Positions 2,428 through 9,244 of a DNA stretch of 9,353 nt are shown here, piece by piece (within the stretch, counting starts at the first letter, position 1; each line of letters starts with the position of its first letter). The notes under the pieces are model-generated. The model worked only from the letters and a program-made list of their open reading frames with translations. It was not told the origin of the DNA and ran no database searches. Source of the DNA: Bacillota bacterium (GTDB taxonomy: Bacteria; Bacillota_C; Negativicutes; Sporomusales; Sporomusaceae); the NCBI GenBank assembly GCA_023441125.1, contig JAEZQV010000085.1, positions 1 to 9,353 on the forward strand, written 5' to 3'. Made by a program: the position numbers and the translations under genes.

Positions 2428-2482
2428 TTGCCAAAAACTTAACACAATGATTACAAAGTCGGGGAGAATTCTGGCTTATAAT
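2428..2482 (+). promoter_or_regulatory. Candidate promoter of the EAL-GGDEF gene, with weak PhoP-like repeats
   Basis: TATAAT at 2477-2482 is a consensus -10, 37 bp before the start codon. No -35 is found at 16-18 bp. Instead three hexamers at an 11-bp period end 21 nt before the -10: TTGCCA (2428), TTAACA (2439) and ATTACA (2450). Only the middle one matches the PhoP half-site TT(A/C/T)A(C/T)A fully. The -10 is credible; the repeats are a weak version of the arrangement at 4505-4558. Confidence 0.35.
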
Positions 2483-2518: not shown

Positions 2519-4441
2519 TTGCCGCTTAAGCTTCCTCACTGGCTGGAAGGTATTTATAACGGCGTAATGGCATTTAACAATCTGGCGTTTCAGGCTAACG
2601 TCCTCTCCCTGGCCGGTGCTCCGCTACCAGCCAACGCCGCCAATGCAGCTACAGACCTAAAAGAAGAGCTGGAAGGAATTATTCGGGAAAAAAGTATTAC
2701 CCCGGTATATCAGCCTATTGTTAACCTGCGGTCGGGGCGAATCATGGGCTATGAGGCGTTAAGCCGCGGTCCGGCAGACAGTCCGCTGCATTTTCCGACC
2801 AAACTGTTCAGTGTCGCCATCGCCAGCAACCGCTTATTAGCACTGGAGCAGGTTTGCCGCGAGGCAGCGCTTCGCCATATAACCACCCTGGGTGTAAACC
2901 AACGCTTATTCCTCAATATGAATGCCGAGGTAGTCAAAGATCCTGATTTTCGCGGCGGCCTGACCAAAGCACTGCTCATTCGTCATGGTCTGAACCCGGA
3001 CCAGGTAACCTTCGAAATCACCGAGCGAACTGCCATTACCGACTTTGAAAGTTTTACCAAATCTCTCAACCACTACCGGCAGCAAGGCTACAGTATTGCG
3101 GTCGATGATGCGGGTGCAGGCTATTCCAGTCTTGAAGCCATTGCCACACTCCGGCCAAATTTCATCAAACTGGATCGTTCCATTGTCTCAAATGTTGATA
3201 AAGATCCCCTAAAGCAGGCTATGCTTGATGCCATGGTCAAGCTGGCGGCAGTTATCAACAGCAAAATTATCGCCGAAGGCATTGAAAATGCCGAGGAATT
3301 ATCCGTCCTGATCAGTAAGGGGGTCCATTATGGCCAGGGATATCTCTTGGCCCGCCCCTGTTTTCCTGCACCGGAAATATCGCCGGAGGTGCTTGAAATG
3401 ATTGCCGAGTTCAACTTCCAGGACATGCAGGTAAAATCCCGGTCCCGTAAAGGTCTGGGGGTAAGTATCGGCGAAATCGTTGAACAAGTCCCCACATTCA
3501 GTCCTAACACGACCGTCAATACCATTGAAGATGTTTTTACCACCCAGCCGGTAAACGGCATTGTCATTGTGGATGGCAGCCGGCCTGTCGGCTTGCTGAT
3601 GAAGGATAAATTGTACTATCAGCTGGGCACAAATTATGGCATATCTCTCTATTACCGCCGGCCGGTAGAACGGGTTATGGATAAAAATCCGCTGATTGTC
3701 AATGCCGAGCTGCCGCTTGAGGCCGTCTCGCAAATGGCTATGAGCCGGGAAGAATCGCACCTCTACGACTTGATTCTGGTCGTACAGGATGATAAATTCG
3801 CCGGTGTAGTCTCGGTTATGACGCTGCTAAATAAAATAACCAATTTGCAAATCCGGCGGGCGCACAATTCCAATCCGCTTACCGGCCTGCCGGGCAATTT
3901 AGTGATTGAGGACAAGCTCAAAGAACTCATCCAGGCAAAAGAACCTTTTGCCGTAATGTATCTTGACCTTGATAACTTTAAAGCGTACAATGATAAATAT
4001 GGCTTTGAACACGGCGATAAGGTATTGCTGGTGACCTCGCAGATTTTAAGTCAAAGTATTGGCAAAGCGGGCTCTGCTGACGATTTTCTGGGTCATATTG
4101 GTGGCGATGACTTTATAATCATTACCAAGCCGGAAAATGTCCCCGGTATCGCTGACTATATCCTCAACGTATTTGACCGGGAAATACGGGGTTTATACCA
4201 GCCGGATGATCTGGCCCAAGGCTACATCGAAGGCAAAAACCGCAAAGGTCAGCCGGAACATTTCTCCATTATGTCGATCTCCATTGCTGCTGTTTCTAAC
4301 CGCTTCCAGATGTTCAGCAATTATTTGGAGATTGCCGAAATTGCCGCCGATCTGAAAAAGCTAGCCAAACAGCAGGCGTGTTCCTGTATCGTATATGACC
4401 GCCGCAATGCACGAGATCAGGTCAATAGCTCAAACAGTTAA
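2519..4441 (+). CDS. EAL-CBS-GGDEF cyclic-di-GMP signalling protein
   Basis: This is a soluble 640-residue protein predicted to hydrolyse cyclic di-GMP. After an N-terminal region of about 50 residues comes an EAL domain (about 55-295) with the active-site set in place: E79 of the EAL motif (YEALSRG), N133 (FLNMN), E166 (FEITER), D196-D197 (AVDDAGAGYSS), K217, E253 (IAEGIE) and Q273 (GQGY). A CBS pair (about 312-440) follows, a module that often binds adenine nucleotides. The GGDEF domain (about 450-625) has NPLTGLPGN, D483/D485 in YLDLDNFK, and GGDDF at 528-532 in place of GG(D/E)EF. The RxxD inhibitory site before it is SADD, so product inhibition there is unlikely. The phosphodiesterase probably works; the cyclase half may be weak, or a GTP-sensing regulator. 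The order is the reverse of common GGDEF-EAL proteins. No membrane segment is seen. The TTG start follows an ideal AGGAGG. The gene is divergent from the sporulation block. Confidence 0.93.
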   Translation: MPLKLPHWLEGIYNGVMAFNNLAFQANVLSLAGAPLPANAANAATDLKEELEGIIREKSITPVYQPIVNLRSGRIMGYEALSRGPADSPLHFPTKLFSVAIASNRLLALEQVCREAALRHITTLGVNQRLFLNMNAEVVKDPDFRGGLTKALLIRHGLNPDQVTFEITERTAITDFESFTKSLNHYRQQGYSIAVDDAGAGYSSLEAIATLRPNFIKLDRSIVSNVDKDPLKQAMLDAMVKLAAVINSKIIAEGIENAEELSVLISKGVHYGQGYLLARPCFPAPEISPEVLEMIAEFNFQDMQVKSRSRKGLGVSIGEIVEQVPTFSPNTTVNTIEDVFTTQPVNGIVIVDGSRPVGLLMKDKLYYQLGTNYGISLYYRRPVERVMDKNPLIVNAELPLEAVSQMAMSREESHLYDLILVVQDDKFAGVVSVMTLLNKITNLQIRRAHNSNPLTGLPGNLVIEDKLKELIQAKEPFAVMYLDLDNFKAYNDKYGFEHGDKVLLVTSQILSQSIGKAGSADDFLGHIGGDDFIIITKPENVPGIADYILNVFDREIRGLYQPDDLAQGYIEGKNRKGQPEHFSIMSISIAAVSNRFQMFSNYLEIAEIAADLKKLAKQQACSCIVYDRRNARDQVNSSNS

Positions 4442-4477
4442 ACTAATGCGCCGCGCTTTTTTGCAATTAAGGCAATG

Positions 4478-4493
4478 AACGCAGGCGTTTTTT
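4478..4493 (+). terminator. Possible weak terminator after the EAL-GGDEF gene
   Basis: AACG/CGTT arms around a CAGG loop run straight into six T residues. The stem is only about 4-5 bp, so termination may be leaky. GGCGTT (4484-4489) could instead pair with AACGCC (4507-4512), which would compete with this hairpin. Confidence 0.3.
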
Positions 4494-4504
4494 ACATAGC
4501 AAAC

Positions 4505-4532
4505 TTAACGCCCTATTAACCTGGGGTTAACA
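4505..4532 (+). promoter_or_regulatory. Putative PhoP box (three direct TTAAC repeats, 11-bp period)
   Basis: TTAACG (4505-4510), TTAACC (4516-4521) and TTAACA (4527-4532) are separated by exactly 5 bp each. B. subtilis PhoP binds direct repeats of TT(A/C/T)A(C/T)A separated by about 5 bp, located roughly -20 to -60 at activated promoters. With the -10 at 4553 these repeats cover about -60 to -33. The first two copies deviate in the last base, and B. subtilis boxes usually have four copies; TTTACA at 4491-4496 is a further match but out of phase (8-bp gap). Confidence 0.5.
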
Positions 4533-4549
4533 GTCCAGTGCGCTTGGCG

Positions 4550-4558
4550 TGCTATAAT
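4550..4558 (+). promoter_or_regulatory. Extended -10 promoter of the glycosyltransferase gene
   Basis: TGCTATAAT has a perfect TATAAT with the TGn extension. No usable -35 exists at 16-18 bp; the last TTAACA repeat sits 20 nt upstream. That is typical of an activator-dependent promoter. The transcript would begin near 4565 and have a leader of about 25 nt. Confidence 0.6.
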
Positions 4559-4576
4559 AAAAATGAGGTTTATGAC

Positions 4577-4584
4577 GAGGTGAT
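4577..4584 (+). promoter_or_regulatory. Ribosome binding site deciding the TTG start at 4589
   Basis: GAGGTGAT is an 8-nt match to the anti-Shine-Dalgarno sequence, with the GGAG core 8 nt before TTG 4589. The upstream in-frame GTG at 4538 overlaps the -35/-10 region and cannot be transcribed from this promoter. ATG 4583 lies inside the binding site. Confidence 0.7.
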
Positions 4585-4588
4585 GACT

Positions 4589-5755
4589 TTGTCGTTTCAA
4601 AATAAGCCGGCAAAAATTCTATTGGTTTCTGCGTCTGTAGGTGCGGGTCATACCCAGGCCGCCCAGGCGATCAGTGCAGCCATTGACAGCCAGAAACTGG
4701 CTGCCACCGAGGTTGTCGACTTTATGGCCGGAGAATACTCCTATCTAAATACTCTGGCCAAAGAAACTTACCTCAAAATGATTGATATCCTGCCAGATAT
4801 GTATGACCTGATGTACCGCTGGTCGCAAATGCCGCTGCCAGGCGGCAAAGTACAGAATCTCATGGCGATGACCATGAAACGCAGCATGCACAAGCTCATA
4901 ACGGCCCACCGTCCCGATGTCATGATCTGCACCCATCCGTTTCCCTGTGGTGCTGCGGCTTACCTTAAGCGCACGCACCGGCTCTCGGTACCGCTGATTG
5001 GCGTCATAACCGACTTTGCCCTTCACCGCCTCTGGTGTTATCACGAAACCGACATGTATTTTGTGGCTACGCCCGAACTAAAACAGGCACTGTCCTTGCA
5101 GGGAATTAACCAGAGCCGTATCCATGCAACGGGTATACCGGTCGGTCCCAAGTTCAGTCACCCGCCGGCGGCGGCCGAACAGGCCGTCCTGCGTCAGGCG
5201 CTGGGCTTTGCCGACAGGCATCATCCTGTGGTCCTCATTATGGGCGGCGGACTGGGCATGGGGGATCTTGAACAGGCCGTGCTGGCGATTGATGCGCTGC
5301 CGCTGCCGCTTAACTTAGTCGTAGTGGCCGGGCGCAATGCAGCCCTGCGCCGGAGTCTCTTAGCCAAAGCACACGACCTTGTCCATCCGGGTAAGGTGTT
5401 GGGTTATACCCAGCATATTCCCGAGCTGATGGCCGCTGCCGACCTCTTAATCACCAAACCCGGCGCTTTAACGCTGAGTGAAGCGCTGTCAATGCGGCTG
5501 CCTATGCTGCTATACCATGCCATCCCCGGTCAGGAAGAGGAAAATGCCGCTTTTCTAACCCAAAAAGGCGCCGCGCTGTGGGCCCATGACAACCGTGCCC
5601 TCGCCGGTACCGTTTACCAGCTTTTTACCAGCCCGGACCAATTAAGATATTTGCGGGAAATGGCTGCCATGCTGGCCCGGCCGGCGGCCGCTCAGACCAT
5701 TGCCAGTACAATCTGGCAAAAGCTATTCAGCACCGGGGCCGCTGCCTCACGCTGA
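4589..5755 (+). CDS. GT28 / MGDG-synthase-type diacylglycerol glycosyltransferase (UgtP-like)
   Basis: The family transfers a hexose (glucose or galactose) from a UDP-sugar to diacylglycerol at the inner membrane face, making glycolipids. The protein has 388 residues, near the usual size. The N-terminal MGDG_synth domain shows ILLVSASVGAGHTQAA (10-25) with the glycine loop and His21, then VMICTHPFPCGA (111-122) and GVITDFALHRLW (138-149). The C-terminal GT-B domain has VLIMGGGLGMGD (215-226), VVVAGRN (244-250), LGYTQHIPELMAAADLLITKPG (271-292) and the sugar-nucleotide signature SEALSMRLPMLLYHAIPGQEEENA. No transmembrane helix is seen, in line with a peripheral enzyme. MurG belongs to the same superfamily, but the N-terminal VGAGH segment argues for the lipid branch. 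The promoter carries a PhoP-like box. The downstream phospholipase C homologue could be cotranscribed, since no clear terminator separates them. The exact sugar and processivity cannot be read here. Confidence 0.88.
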   Translation: MSFQNKPAKILLVSASVGAGHTQAAQAISAAIDSQKLAATEVVDFMAGEYSYLNTLAKETYLKMIDILPDMYDLMYRWSQMPLPGGKVQNLMAMTMKRSMHKLITAHRPDVMICTHPFPCGAAAYLKRTHRLSVPLIGVITDFALHRLWCYHETDMYFVATPELKQALSLQGINQSRIHATGIPVGPKFSHPPAAAEQAVLRQALGFADRHHPVVLIMGGGLGMGDLEQAVLAIDALPLPLNLVVVAGRNAALRRSLLAKAHDLVHPGKVLGYTQHIPELMAAADLLITKPGALTLSEALSMRLPMLLYHAIPGQEEENAAFLTQKGAALWAHDNRALAGTVYQLFTSPDQLRYLREMAAMLARPAAAQTIASTIWQKLFSTGAAASR

Positions 5756-5778
5756 CCCTGTCAGGGAATAACTGTCAA

Positions 5779-5820
5779 GGGGATGGTTCTTTTGACATGC
5801 CTGTCAGAGGAACCGTCCCC
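5779..5820 (+). repeat. Long palindrome, REP/MITE-like, between glycosyltransferase and phospholipase C genes
   Basis: Arms 5779-5797 and 5802-5820 pair over 19 positions around a TGCC loop. Sixteen pairs are Watson-Crick; three (5784/5815, 5790/5809, 5792/5807) are G-U if transcribed from the plus strand. The arms carry GGGGATGGTTC and GAACCGTCCCC. From memory, GGGGACGGTTC-type palindromes recur in many Firmicute genomes. No T-run follows, so it is not a standard terminator. Confidence 0.7.
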
Positions 5821-5828
5821 TAATCATT

Positions 5829-5834: not shown

Positions 5835-5842
5835 AAATGACT

Positions 5843-6571
5843 ATGAGAGCTGAGTCCCTGCCGGCCACCTATACCGGTGTGACCGGAGCCAAACTACTGC
5901 TTGCTGCTGTCAGTCCCTTCCAAGGTTTGTTTGACCGTCCCAGTATAACGCACGAATTTCTTAACCGGCAGGCAATTATCATCTTACATAATGACGGCTT
6001 GGAACATTGTGCCGGTTTGCTGCATCACTTTCTCACCGAACTGAACAATGGTGTCTACTGGGCAGACCATGGCTGGAAAAACGTCAGCCATTACTATGAG
6101 CCGCCAACCGGCAAGGGGTTATGGCATTTTGCCACCGCGTTGGATAGCTTCTCGGTTTATTTTGAAGCCGCATTGAAGCGCTTCCGGCAGCACGATACGG
6201 CCGGCAGTATTTTCCTCTTAGGTGCAGCCGCGCATCTATTACAGGATGTCTGTGTCCCTCACCATGCCCGGGCTAAGCTTTTCTCCGGTCATAAGGAATA
6301 TGAAAATTGGGTCAGGATTTATCATGCCGATTTCGCTGTTGACCGGCAAGGGCTGTACCTTACCGGTAAGCTCCCCCACGAGTTGCTCATTAAGAATGCT
6401 ACCGCCGCCGCCGACTATCTGGACTGGGTGACCGAAGAAAATCACACCCGCTTCCATACGGTAACTACCGACCTCCTGGCCCGGGCCCAGCGTACCACAG
6501 CCGGCTTGTTTGAGCGTTTTTGCGTATTAGCCGGGATTCGTCAGGGCGGCAGCCGGCTCACGGTTGCCTGA
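5843..6571 (+). CDS. Zinc-dependent phospholipase C family protein
   Basis: This 242-residue protein belongs to the phospholipase C/P1 nuclease superfamily, whose phospholipase members cleave phospholipids to diacylglycerol and a phospho-headgroup using three zinc ions. Ligand positions of the B. cereus enzyme can be followed: H37 (ITHEF), D75 (ELNNGVYWAD), H83 (SHYYEPPTG), H131-x3-D135-x5-H141 (AHLLQDVCVPHH) and H150-x3-E154 (GHKEYENWV). AQRTTAG at 215-221 matches the C-terminal helix. The B. cereus enzyme also uses the mature N-terminal Trp1, 13 residues before the first His; here that place is Ser24 and no Trp is nearby. There is no convincing signal peptide, only a short hydrophobic run at 17-23. 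It may therefore act inside the cell, with altered metal binding or another phosphoester substrate. Its neighbours are the diacylglycerol glycosyltransferase upstream and long palindromes on both sides. Confidence 0.87.
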   Translation: MRAESLPATYTGVTGAKLLLAAVSPFQGLFDRPSITHEFLNRQAIIILHNDGLEHCAGLLHHFLTELNNGVYWADHGWKNVSHYYEPPTGKGLWHFATALDSFSVYFEAALKRFRQHDTAGSIFLLGAAAHLLQDVCVPHHARAKLFSGHKEYENWVRIYHADFAVDRQGLYLTGKLPHELLIKNATAAADYLDWVTEENHTRFHTVTTDLLARAQRTTAGLFERFCVLAGIRQGGSRLTVA

Positions 6572-6596: not shown

Positions 6597-6645
6597 GGGG
6601 ATGGTTTTTGTGCCTGCTAACGGTAATGGCCCAAAAACCATCCCC
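6597..6645 (+). repeat. Second long palindrome, sharing GGGGATGGTT with the one at 5779
   Basis: Perfect 14-bp arms GGGGATGGTTTTTG (6597-6610) and its complement (6632-6645) enclose a 21-nt loop. It begins 25 bp after the phospholipase C stop codon. The outer ten bases equal those of the left arm at 5779. No T-run follows directly. As RNA it could slow transcription or protect a 3' end. Confidence 0.7.
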
Positions 6646-6681: not shown

Positions 6682-6722
6682 CTGACCTAAAAGCGAATAT
6701 TTATATAAACTGCCAATATTGG
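6682..6722 (+). promoter_or_regulatory. Candidate promoter and palindromic operator of the CYTH-CHAD gene
   Basis: CTGACC (6682-6687), a 16-bp spacer and TATAAA (6704-6709) make a modest sigma-A promoter. The perfect palindrome CCAATATTGG (6713-6722) sits over the expected start of transcription, a common place for a repressor site. Confidence 0.35.
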
Positions 6723-6735
6723 ATATGCCATACTC

Positions 6736-6744
6736 AAGGAGGTG
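6736..6744 (+). promoter_or_regulatory. Ribosome binding site deciding the GTG at 6752
   Basis: AAGGAGGTG is nearly ideal and lies 7 nt before GTG 6752. The longer reading from TTG 6719 would begin upstream of this site, inside the CCAATATTGG palindrome, and is rejected. Confidence 0.8.
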
Positions 6745-6751
6745 CTTACCG

Positions 6752-8353
6752 GTGACCAACACGGAAGCTGAACTGAAATTGCGAATTGCTGATCCCGCCT
6801 GCCTCAGCCGGTTATTGTCCGCGCCCTTGCTGGCGCAGCTCTCAACCCAGCCGCCTTATAAGGAGCTGATGGAAACCACCTATTATGATACAGCCGATCA
6901 GCGCTTGTTAAAATCGCGCCTATCCTACCGGCTGCGCTTGGCCAACGGGGAATGGACGGCTACGGTCAAGGCCGACGGCACCAGTGACGGCGGCTTGCAT
7001 CAACGAACTGAATATAATGTTCCTGTAGATAAGCCACTGCCAACGCTTGCGCATTTTCTGGCTACCGCCATCGGCGGGCGGTTGGCTGAAGCTGCCGGTG
7101 ATCTGCCGCTGGAACCGGTATTCAGCACCCGTTTTGAACGGCATATCATGAATGTCGGCACGCCTGACGGCAGCAGCATTGAACTGGCCCTGGACAATGG
7201 CGAAATTATCGCCGGCGATAAACAGCAACCCCTGCTGGAACTGGAGCTGGAATTAAAGGCCGGCCGGCCGCAGGCTCTCATTTGGCTGGGAGCCGCCTTG
7301 GCCGGGGAATTTCCCCTGCTGCCCGAACAGGAAAGCAAACTGTACCGGGCTACTGTCTTAGCCGGTCTGGCCGCTGGACTTGGCCGCGATATCCCGCAGC
7401 CAGCCCCGCTGAAAAAAGCCAGCGCACTCTTGCCGGCCAATCAGATTTTCAGCCAGATTATGATCCACACCATCCATGATCTGGTCCGGGCGCAGCAAGC
7501 CTATCTAACTGCTCCGGACGACATTGAAACTTTGCATGCCCTGCGGTTGGAACTCCGCAGGCTTAATGCCCTGCTGCAGCTGGCCCGGCCACTCCTGCCG
7601 CCGGAAGAACAGCAGGACATGACGGAAAAAGTTACCGCCTGGGACTGCCGGTTCAGCGATGTTCGCGATCTGGACAGCCTCAGCATGGCCTGGCAGGAAC
7701 TAACCGGCTATATGAGCCGCGTAATCCCCGAACATGCGGGGAAACCGGCTCTAACCGCGCTGCTGGCGGCTAAGCGGCAAACGGTAAGAGTAACTTTCCA
7801 CAACGCAGTCGCCGCCGGCGAACTTACCGCCGTACTACTGAGCATCTGGTCCTCGCTTGCGGACTGGGCCGACCAAGACAACGGTCATACTCAGCCGCTA
7901 TTTAAAGAATTCGTTCTCGAACACGTAACGTTATGGCTTACACAGTTTTTACAAATGGGCAATGATTTAGACGTAGCCGATTTAAATGCGGTACACAGCC
8001 TGCGGATTACCGGCCGCCGGCTAAGGCTTGTCCTCGAAACCCTGTCTCCCGTCCTGCCGGCCAGCACCGGTGCGCTCCTTAAGCGGCTGGAGAAACTCCA
8101 GGATATCCTGGGGAGAATTCAGGATGTTGCTCTCACTCCGACCCTGTTACAGGAACTGGTCAAGGCGTCTGCCAGCCGCCTTACCCATCGCGATGCCGGC
8201 CTGATCACGGGCTGGCAACTGGCCCGGTCCTCGCTGACCTGCAGCAGTTGGCGCAAAGCCTGGCCCAAAGTCCTCAAGGCTGCCGCCAAACAAAAGAAAC
8301 TCAAAGTTCGGCCGGAATCGATCGGCAATAAAAGAAATCCTGAGCTAGAGTAA
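6752..8353 (+). CDS. CYTH-CHAD domain protein (inorganic triphosphatase-like)
   Basis: CYTH domains are tunnel-fold enzymes that bind triphosphate groups with metal ions; CHAD domains are helical, His/Arg-rich and bind polyphosphate. From GTG 6752 the protein has 533 residues. The CYTH part (about 1-205) shows E5-x-E7-x-K9 (EAELK), YYDTADQRL (44-52), R60/R62, TVKADG (71-76), GLHQRTEYNV (81-90), IELALDNGEI (143-152) and LELELELKAG (162-171). The CHAD part (about 230-505) has two repeats, each with HxxR: H262/R265 with R269-R270, and H415/R418 with R422-R423. RDLD (305-308) and LGRIQDVA (453-460) also fit the family. The end is basic (KQKKLKVR). All main CYTH residues are present, so triphosphatase activity is likely, though the natural substrate is not shown. 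It stands alone downstream of two inverted repeats and faces pstA. Its last codons form part of the terminator. Confidence 0.92.
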   Translation: MTNTEAELKLRIADPACLSRLLSAPLLAQLSTQPPYKELMETTYYDTADQRLLKSRLSYRLRLANGEWTATVKADGTSDGGLHQRTEYNVPVDKPLPTLAHFLATAIGGRLAEAAGDLPLEPVFSTRFERHIMNVGTPDGSSIELALDNGEIIAGDKQQPLLELELELKAGRPQALIWLGAALAGEFPLLPEQESKLYRATVLAGLAAGLGRDIPQPAPLKKASALLPANQIFSQIMIHTIHDLVRAQQAYLTAPDDIETLHALRLELRRLNALLQLARPLLPPEEQQDMTEKVTAWDCRFSDVRDLDSLSMAWQELTGYMSRVIPEHAGKPALTALLAAKRQTVRVTFHNAVAAGELTAVLLSIWSSLADWADQDNGHTQPLFKEFVLEHVTLWLTQFLQMGNDLDVADLNAVHSLRITGRRLRLVLETLSPVLPASTGALLKRLEKLQDILGRIQDVALTPTLLQELVKASASRLTHRDAGLITGWQLARSSLTCSSWRKAWPKVLKAAAKQKKLKVRPESIGNKRNPELE

Positions 8354-8383: not shown

Positions 8384-9244
8384 TTAGTGTCCGCCGCCGG
8401 CCATTTTGCGCTGAATATATTTACTCGGCAGCGCAAACATCAGGTTAAACACCAGAATGGTAATAATGAGCAATGCCCCGGTGCCGTCGGCGATAGCCAG
8501 CCGGTCAGGCACCAGCCCCACGGCCATAACGTACCACATATGCACCGCCAGTGTTTCACCGGCTGCCGTAACATCAAAATTAGGTATTGTCCGGGATACC
8601 GTTGTCCCGGCGGTGAATATCAGAATGGCTGTTTCCCCTAAAGCCCGGCCGGCGGTCAGGGTAATACCGGTAATAATGCCCGGCAGGGCGTTAGGCAGAA
8701 CTACCCGCCAGATGGTCTGCCATTTGGTGGCGCCCAGGGCCAGACTGGCTTCCCGGTAATGCGCCGGCACAGTCCGGATGGTTTCCTCGGTTACCCGCAC
8801 CAGCACCGGCAGATTGAGCAGCATCAGGGTCAATGAACCGCCAATGATACTAAAACCCATCCCCAGCATATTTACAAAAATGATCATGCCGAACAAGCCT
8901 AACACAATAGAAGGAACGGTAGCCAGACTTTCGGTGCTCAGCCGGATCATGTCTGTCAGCCGGTCGTTGCCGGCATACTCCGCTAAATAAATCCCGGCCC
9001 CGACCGCCACCGGAATGGAAAATAGCAACGACAAGGCCAGAATGTAGAACGAATTGAAAAACTGTGCGCCAACACCGCCGCCGGCGTTAATATCACTGGA
9101 CATACCGGTAATAAAGTTCCAGCTTAACACCGGCAGCCCCTTAAGCAGCATATAACCCAGAAAAATAACCAGTATGGCCAATATACACATTCCCGCCAGC
9201 CACAGTACCGCTGTGGCTGCCCGGTCCCAAACCCGCGCCGACAT
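8384..9244 (-). CDS. pstA: Phosphate ABC transporter permease PstA
   Basis: PstA and PstC form the membrane channel of the high-affinity phosphate importer, with PstS binding phosphate and PstB hydrolysing ATP. The protein has 286 residues, normal for the family. Likely membrane segments lie at about 13-35, 62-89, 108-130, 132-150, 187-210 and 253-274. The cytoplasmic EAA loop that contacts PstB is at 165-193 (EASLALGATKWQTIWRVVLPNALPG). AGRALGETAILIFTAG (198-213) is typical of PstA. The ATG is preceded by AAGGAGG (9259-9253) at 8 nt, and it overlaps the pstC stop codon, so the two are probably translationally coupled. PstB would normally follow, but here the gene ends at the terminator 11 bp downstream, so pstB must lie elsewhere. 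The operon promoter lies outside the window to the right; PhoP control is usual but cannot be seen here. Confidence 0.95.
   Translation of the reverse strand: MSARVWDRAATAVLWLAGMCILAILVIFLGYMLLKGLPVLSWNFITGMSSDINAGGGVGAQFFNSFYILALSLLFSIPVAVGAGIYLAEYAGNDRLTDMIRLSTESLATVPSIVLGLFGMIIFVNMLGMGFSIIGGSLTLMLLNLPVLVRVTEETIRTVPAHYREASLALGATKWQTIWRVVLPNALPGIITGITLTAGRALGETAILIFTAGTTVSRTIPNFDVTAAGETLAVHMWYVMAVGLVPDRLAIADGTGALLIITILVFNLMFALPSKYIQRKMAGGGH

Follow-up and report, generated by a model that had tools for sequence, protein, structure and literature searches.

In the PlcP-Agt system of bacteria, PlcP is a metallophosphoesterase and Agt a GT4 enzyme. In Bacillus subtilis, PhoP-activated promoters carry TTAACA-type direct repeats at 11 nt, four in number, upstream of a -10 element without a good -35, and older work describes glycolipid shifts in phosphate-limited bacilli grown in chemostats. 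In marine heterotrophic bacteria, a phospholipase C gene and a diacylglycerol glycosyltransferase gene lie downstream of a Pho box, and the glycolipid made by this PlcP-Agt system replaces phospholipid under phosphorus stress (PMC4796936). The lineages named for it are the Alphaproteobacteria, Gammaproteobacteria, Flavobacteria and Verrucomicrobia; the Firmicutes are not mentioned in the main text. The fitness of phosphate-limited Desulfovibrio is affected by a homologue of Agt (PMC5193443), and Methylosinus, Pseudomonas aeruginosa and Mycobacterium tuberculosis are also named in connection with PlcP-Agt-like topics (PMC9239053, PMC8528852, PMC12722247). The general 11-nt structure of Pho boxes has been described (PMC4415409). 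As to the Firmicutes, the main text of the paper on the lipid glycosyltransferases UgtA and UgtB of Clostridioides difficile contains neither the word 'phosphate' nor the word 'phospholipase', and reports neither Pho control nor a paired phospholipase C (PMC11898633). In searches of the open-licence literature, no title or abstract opening described Pho-controlled glycolipid synthesis in this phylum.

Here we analyse a stretch of 9,353 nucleotides from a member of the Sporomusaceae (the window), in which a three-repeat box precedes the genes of a diacylglycerol glycosyltransferase-like protein (GT) and a phospholipase C-like protein (PLC). At the level of genome comparison, Pho-type regulation of the GT-PLC pair is well supported, and from the genes we infer a phosphate response and both enzyme activities.

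Gene organization of the locus

The window carries, in this order, a GerA-type gene and a SpoIID-like gene (both on the reverse strand), genes for an EAL-CBS-GGDEF protein, the GT, the PLC and a CYTH-CHAD protein (all on the forward strand), and pstA (reverse strand), just past which it stops (Table 1). The TTG start of the GT was read from a GAGGTG ribosome site and from an ATG found at the same aligned place in G011 and L159 (G and L denote genomes and loci, respectively). CYTH-CHAD proteins have a link to polyphosphate, and this gene is a possible further member of the operon.

Table 1. Positions of the genes and regulatory elements in the window
Feature	Coordinates	Strand	Remarks
Weaker box-like site (tentative)	2428..2455	+	TTGCCA, TTAACA, ATTACA with an 11-nt period; upstream of the EAL-CBS-GGDEF gene; score 11.0
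EAL-CBS-GGDEF protein, c-di-GMP enzyme-like	2519..4441	+	found repeatedly beside GT-PLC pairs
Hairpin, possibly the terminator of the EAL-CBS-GGDEF gene	4448..4488	+	fold versus shuffles
PhoP/PhoB box	4505..4532	+	TTAACG 4505, TTAACC 4516, TTAACA 4527; exact 11-nt period
Extended -10, TGCTATAAT	4550..4558	+	TGC 4550-4552, TATAAT 4553-4558
Diacylglycerol glycosyltransferase-like protein (GT)	4589..5755	+	PF06925 and PF04101; TTG start
Zinc-dependent phospholipase C-like protein (PLC)	5837..6571	+	PF00882
CYTH-CHAD protein	6719..8353	+	same order in Sporomusa malonica
pstA, end of the phosphate-transport genes	8384..9244	-	TIGR00974 above cut-off

The possible terminator folds weakly (z -1.84, 10 of 200 shuffles being equally good; z -5.29 for its Sporomusa malonica counterpart), and a pattern search found no terminator-like site after the EAL-CBS-GGDEF gene. 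Should transcription end there, the GT gene would need its own promoter. A strong hairpin repeat between the GT and PLC genes (5778-5821, z -7.8) may lower or modulate the expression of PLC. We noticed that this hairpin and a second strong one (6597-6645) have similar ends (GGGGATGGTT...) and flank the PLC gene on either side, and that S. malonica contains a related dispersed repeat, matched 13 times (at most 2 mismatches; 1 match for the control), in one case just 3' of the GT gene. Rfam gave no gathering-score match anywhere in the window.

A three-repeat box in front of an extended -10 element

The box and the -10 element make up the sequence TTAACGCCCTATTAACCTGGGGTTAACAGTCCAGTGCGCTTGGCGTGCTATAAT (positions 4505-4558). 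A preliminary description had reported the repeats with their positions, the 11-bp period and a distance of 20 nt to an extended -10 that lacks a -35, and all of this is confirmed in the sequence: the third hexamer and TATAAT are 20 nt apart (4533-4552), and 4400-4650 contains no sigma-70 -35/-10 pair with at least 9 of 12 matches. The pattern TTAACn6TTAACn6TTAAC has a single exact occurrence in the window. When as many as 3 mismatches are allowed it matches twice, the second match being the reverse-strand reading of the same place, and shuffles gave a mean of 0.13 such matches (200 shuffles, 1 of which also reached 2).

The same box marks phosphate genes in relatives

We compared the locus with 12 genomes of the family (S. 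malonica, G001, included) and with the order at large, represented by 28 genomes that amount to about 117 Mb. The nearest named relative, S. malonica (Negativicutes, Sporomusaceae), has a GT that is 75% identical and the same gene order, which runs on into pstA, pstC, pstS and a divergent histidine kinase gene. Its 5.2 Mb contain 5 exact triples, located at pstS, at pstC, at an alkaline phosphatase gene, at the GT gene and at one place where no downstream open reading frame (ORF) was found. The 12 family genomes hold 42 exact triples (5 in S. malonica and 37 in the other 11, with none in G002), and the reversed control pattern has none at zero mismatches (1 in S. malonica with one mismatch allowed). 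Order-wide, 80 exact triples stand against 0 for the reversed pattern.

Thirty-five of the 42 family sites, from 11 genomes, were examined. Twenty-seven of these precede pstS (9), pstC (7), GT (4), alkaline phosphatase (4, including L084, assigned by Pfam) or GntR/UTRA regulator genes (3), and the other 8 lie away from any recognised phosphate gene. Among these 8, L143 and L151 represent a single tandem array, read in two registers, upstream of an acyltransferase gene, and L085, L126, L137 and L148 have no ORF. The 11-nt direct repeats in front of the GT match the pst and phosphatase boxes of the same lineage. The preliminary description, which had read the repeats as a PhoP-box-like element before a lipid glycosyltransferase and had proposed looking for them at pst genes and in relatives that keep the GT, is supported on these grounds: the box stands at pstS and pstC of S. 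malonica and other relatives, and also at alkaline phosphatase genes, and its conservation at the GT is as follows.

The GT orthologue (GT-A) is present in 10 of the 12 family genomes and keeps the box in 6 of them, and the 4 genomes in which it is unboxed are exactly those that carry a second, boxed GT-PLC pair. Box, GT-A and PLC occur together in the window, G001, G003, G010 (with one mismatch), G011 and G012. In G004-G007, GT-A has neither the box nor an adjacent PLC, and the second pair, GT-B and PLC, is boxed (one mismatch in G005-G007, two in G004); these genomes offer a natural experiment on how regulatory sites may follow function from one paralogue to another. Near the GT-B pair of G005 and G007 there is a boxed alkaline phosphatase gene, separated from it by one gene. 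Box and PLC adjacency do not fully coincide, G009 being the exception: it has a boxed GT-A without an adjacent PLC, and its PLC lies elsewhere with a site of its own (two mismatches). In Anaerospora hongkongensis (L002), a divergent histidine kinase gene, the box, GT, PLC, a short ORF, a boxed pstS and a boxed pstC follow one another.

We also noticed three copies of one 27-nt box sequence in G006/G007 (L126, L137 and G007:C1:3977414), and neither of the two loci examined has an ORF downstream of it; it could be part of an element, mobile or non-coding, that has a Pho-like promoter. S. malonica has one-mismatch boxes before a chemoreceptor gene (L091) and a NUDIX gene (L086), which are possible additional Pho targets. 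In the boxed GT-B pair of G005 (L163, 6352-6936), the PLC lacks about 40 residues, conserved positions included, and the adjoining GT is full length.

As for the regulator itself, the top match to the PhoB model in G001, G012 and G117 is followed by a gene that looks pstB-like by eye, and a box-like site lies between the two (scores of 15.7, 11.3 and 22.9, respectively). The PhoB-like protein of S. malonica is encoded at G001:C16:45250-45930. A site scoring 26.6 in G010, about 680 nt beyond a PhoB-like gene, was not counted as support, the stretch examined containing no pstB-like gene. In the genomes of L199, L200 and L202, the pstB-like gene (by eye) lies apart from pstSCA and after the top PhoB-model match, and a histidine kinase gene lies beside pstS or GT instead.

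A matrix trained on pst boxes recognises the lipid genes

A weight matrix was built from the hexamer positions of 21 pstS and pstC boxes, with no GT or PLC site in the training set. The window box, at 23.6, was its top site in the window on both strands. The GT genes that are followed by a PLC scored from 17.5 to 32.0 in 11 of 11 cases (one of them, G005, with the shortened PLC). Of the five GT-A orthologues without an adjacent PLC, those of G004-G007 scored at most 0.9 and that of G009 scored 23.2. A third paralogue in a different neighbourhood, GT-C, scored at most -3.4 in 11 of 11 cases. The best unrelated gene, an EAL gene of G012, reached 16.4 (147 upstream regions of ORFs of at least 200 aa from 18 loci, with mechanically set starts, and with pst, phosphatase and lipid genes excluded); among the shuffled upstream regions one reached 17.4 and the next 6.0. 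A scan of whole loci found no site with up to 2 mismatches in G004-G006, and an eroded box, with 2 mismatches but in the same register as in its orthologues, is left in G007.

GT-PLC loci across the class and the geometry of their promoters

A profile search for PLC matched 56 of 300 genomes of the class, and the 30 best-scoring loci (L169-L198) were examined; 9 of them are loci described above (L169-L176, together with L178, which was recognised by its identical boxes), and two more, L177 and L179, belong to family genomes covered before. The GT lies directly upstream of the PLC homologue in 27 of these 30 (being only 24% identical in L182, and found via tblastn in L181 and L183), and the PLC of L177, L179 and L192 has no GT but a site of its own (24.5, 18.8 and 23.2, respectively). 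With the matrix, 22 of the 30 loci score at least 15.7, 6 score 6.9-12.7 (L182 and L193-L197, some with irregular or additional repeats) and 2 have no site; the 99th percentile of the shuffles is 7.3, which L193 (6.9) does not exceed. L181, L182, L183 and L196 were scored in a second pass from the tblastn-found GT, the first pass having lacked a GT start in three of them and having used a start too far upstream in L196. PLC and GT are paired under a Pho box, the exceptions being L187 and L191, which are GT-PLC loci without a box.

Of the 30 loci, 18 were aligned together with the window, and in all 19 of these lipid-operon boxes the hexamer of an extended -10 (TGn) begins exactly 20 nt past the third repeat. 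Twelve loci were dropped before this count (L182, L186, L187 and L190-L198), among which L186, L190, L192 and L198 score at least 15.7 but appear to have extra repeats. The distance is fixed as in the pst promoters, where the -10 lies at 20-21 nt in 19 of 21 cases; the remaining two were called at 23 and 25, with a TACAAT at 20 scoring equally. The TG before the -10 hexamer, in contrast, is found in 19 of the 19 aligned lipid-operon promoters and in 0 of the 21 pst promoters. The GT-A promoter of G009 keeps the 20-nt spacing, with TAG in place of TGn.

Beyond the near relatives, the region upstream of the GT was scored in 80 GT relatives, and only L001 (Sporomusa) and L002 (Anaerospora) exceed 12.4; the other 78 include Megasphaera (L003) and Massilibacillus (L008), which are of the same class. 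In Desulfosporosinus (L010, L015, L024 and L075), PLC precedes GT, and in two of these loci the pair has a GTTTAGA triple with an 11-nt period (L010 9149-9176, L024 9169-9196); an exact TTTAG triple occurs once each in 2 of 5 Desulfosporosinus genomes. As this triple is unlike the TTAACT/TTTACA repeats of the main pst promoter (3 of 3 genomes, L209-L211), we do not claim Pho control there, and the pair is perhaps under another regulator.

The GT and PLC proteins

The GT scores above the cut-offs of PF06925 and PF04101 and below that of the GT4 N-terminal model PF13439. Among solved chains it is closest to a processive diacylglycerol beta-glucosyltransferase (E 4e-42), followed by MGD1 of Arabidopsis (E 4e-29), and MGD1 is also the best structural match of its predicted model (pLDDT 83; TM 0.77 by query length), so that both domains and fold are of the MGD1/UgtP type. 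The GT misses the NCBIfam equivalog cut-off (262 of 500 bits), its nearest models there being diglucosyl-diacylglycerol synthases.

The sole family matched by the PLC is PF00882 (39.2 bits versus a gathering score of 26.8), and no NCBIfam family was matched. Its model is of middling confidence (pLDDT 68.9, residues 1-35 below 50) and has the zinc-dependent phospholipase C fold, being closest to the phosphatidylcholine-specific enzyme (PC-PLC) of Bacillus cereus (TM 0.68; E 1.3e-7 for PC-PLC versus 0.14 for S1 nucleases in the fold search). An alignment of 11 sequences shows conservation of H39, H85 (nearly), H133, D137, H142, H143, H152 and E156, which we take as putative zinc ligands. No signal peptide is evident by eye, and hence the PLC is probably cytoplasmic.

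A possible link to cyclic di-GMP

The weaker box-like site before the EAL-CBS-GGDEF gene has a TATAAT 21 nt past the array (region 2428-2482). Of the 6 relatives that share this gene order, 5 have a similar site before the EAL gene (scores of 7.3-16.4), the exception being L159, and the EAL genes of L002 and L162-L164 have no such site (at most 0.3). EAL/GGDEF genes follow PLC in 10 of the 30 best class-wide loci (by blastp), and in L181 by eye. A Pho link to c-di-GMP is possible. A broader proposal, which we put forward tentatively and are inclined to doubt, is that the diderm spore-forming Negativicutes evolved their own lipid remodelling for phosphate starvation, with a cytoplasmic PF00882 PLC and a UgtP/MGD1-type GT unrelated to PlcP-Agt, in a regulon whose EAL-CBS-GGDEF protein would tie phosphate shortage to c-di-GMP.

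Proposed mechanism and alternative explanations

The PLC gene beside the GT, absent from the preliminary description, gives the regulation its likely meaning. We propose, as the probable reading of these sequences, that GT and PLC form an operon activated by PhoP/PhoB, which converts phospholipid into diacylglycerol and then into glycolipid under phosphate starvation. The phosphorylated OmpR-type regulator would bind along one face of the helix, to the three 11-bp half-sites, and recruit RNA polymerase to the extended -10 element that lacks a -35. The resulting transcript would cover GT and, in most relatives, PLC. The PLC would then split membrane phospholipid into diacylglycerol and a phosphorylated head group, and the GT would put a sugar on the diacylglycerol, so that the cell would recover phosphate and keep its bilayer with glycolipid. 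What genome comparison itself documents is the box with its geometry, the fact that it is the same as the pst and phosphatase boxes, and its association with the GT-PLC pair; binding and activation by the regulator, co-transcription, diacylglycerol release and glycosylation are what we predict from them.

An unlikely alternative keeps the Pho-controlled promoter and gives the operon another purpose: the GT would make a glycolipid or envelope precursor, for the outer membrane or the spore envelope, and the PF00882 protein would be a nuclease or a phosphodiesterase. The acceptor and sugar of the GT are putative, and S1-type nucleases do appear lower in the fold search with the PLC model, the fold being shared; however, the PC-PLC structures rank far above them, and the PLC stands beside a GT in nearly all of the best class-wide loci. 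That the box is used by some other OmpR-family regulator with TTAAC repeats, rather than by the phosphate regulator, seems to us quite improbable. In four genomes the PhoB model finds 50-93 matches apiece, many of which are receiver domains only, direct repeats of 10-11 bp are common among OmpR-family regulators, and the Desulfosporosinus pair has a triple unlike that of its pst promoter, but in the very genomes that carry the TTAAC box at the lipid genes it marks pstS, pstC and alkaline phosphatase genes.

A chance repeat in an intergenic region, conceivable for a box of just 15 fixed bases, can be rejected with near certainty: the repeat is conserved in relatives, has a fixed geometry and is rare genome-wide. 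We also rejected serving the upstream EAL gene as the main role of the box, which sits after that gene and points to the GT, and which G003 (L161) retains with no EAL gene between its SpoIID and GT genes. The preferred reading thus remains the phosphate-controlled GT-PLC operon; if true, it represents a parallel solution to phosphorus-stress lipid remodelling in the Negativicutes, and it supplies named genes for the lipid response of these anaerobes.

Comparison with known systems

The window promoter shares with the PhoP promoters of B. subtilis the TTAACA-type repeats, spaced at 11 nt, and a downstream -10 with no good -35. It differs in having three repeats instead of four, in its target, a diacylglycerol GT, and in the TG extension of the -10, which is a mark of the lipid operon and not of the lineage's own pst promoters. 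The PLC has in common with PC-PLC of B. cereus the fold and the conserved His/Asp/Glu set. The B. cereus enzyme is secreted and uses its N-terminal tryptophan as a ligand, whereas the window PLC has no signal peptide evident by eye and no visible counterpart of this tryptophan. Like UgtP/YpfP and the UgtA and UgtB of C. difficile, the GT would be a lipid glycosyltransferase of the Firmicutes (PMC11898633). With PlcP-Agt, the locus shares a PLC gene adjoining a GT gene under a Pho box. The proteins are others: the PLC belongs to PF00882 and not to the metallophosphoesterases of the PlcP family, and the GT to PF06925/PF04101 and not to GT4, as Agt does. As read from its genes, the GT-PLC operon would follow the logic of PlcP-Agt with other protein families in another lineage.
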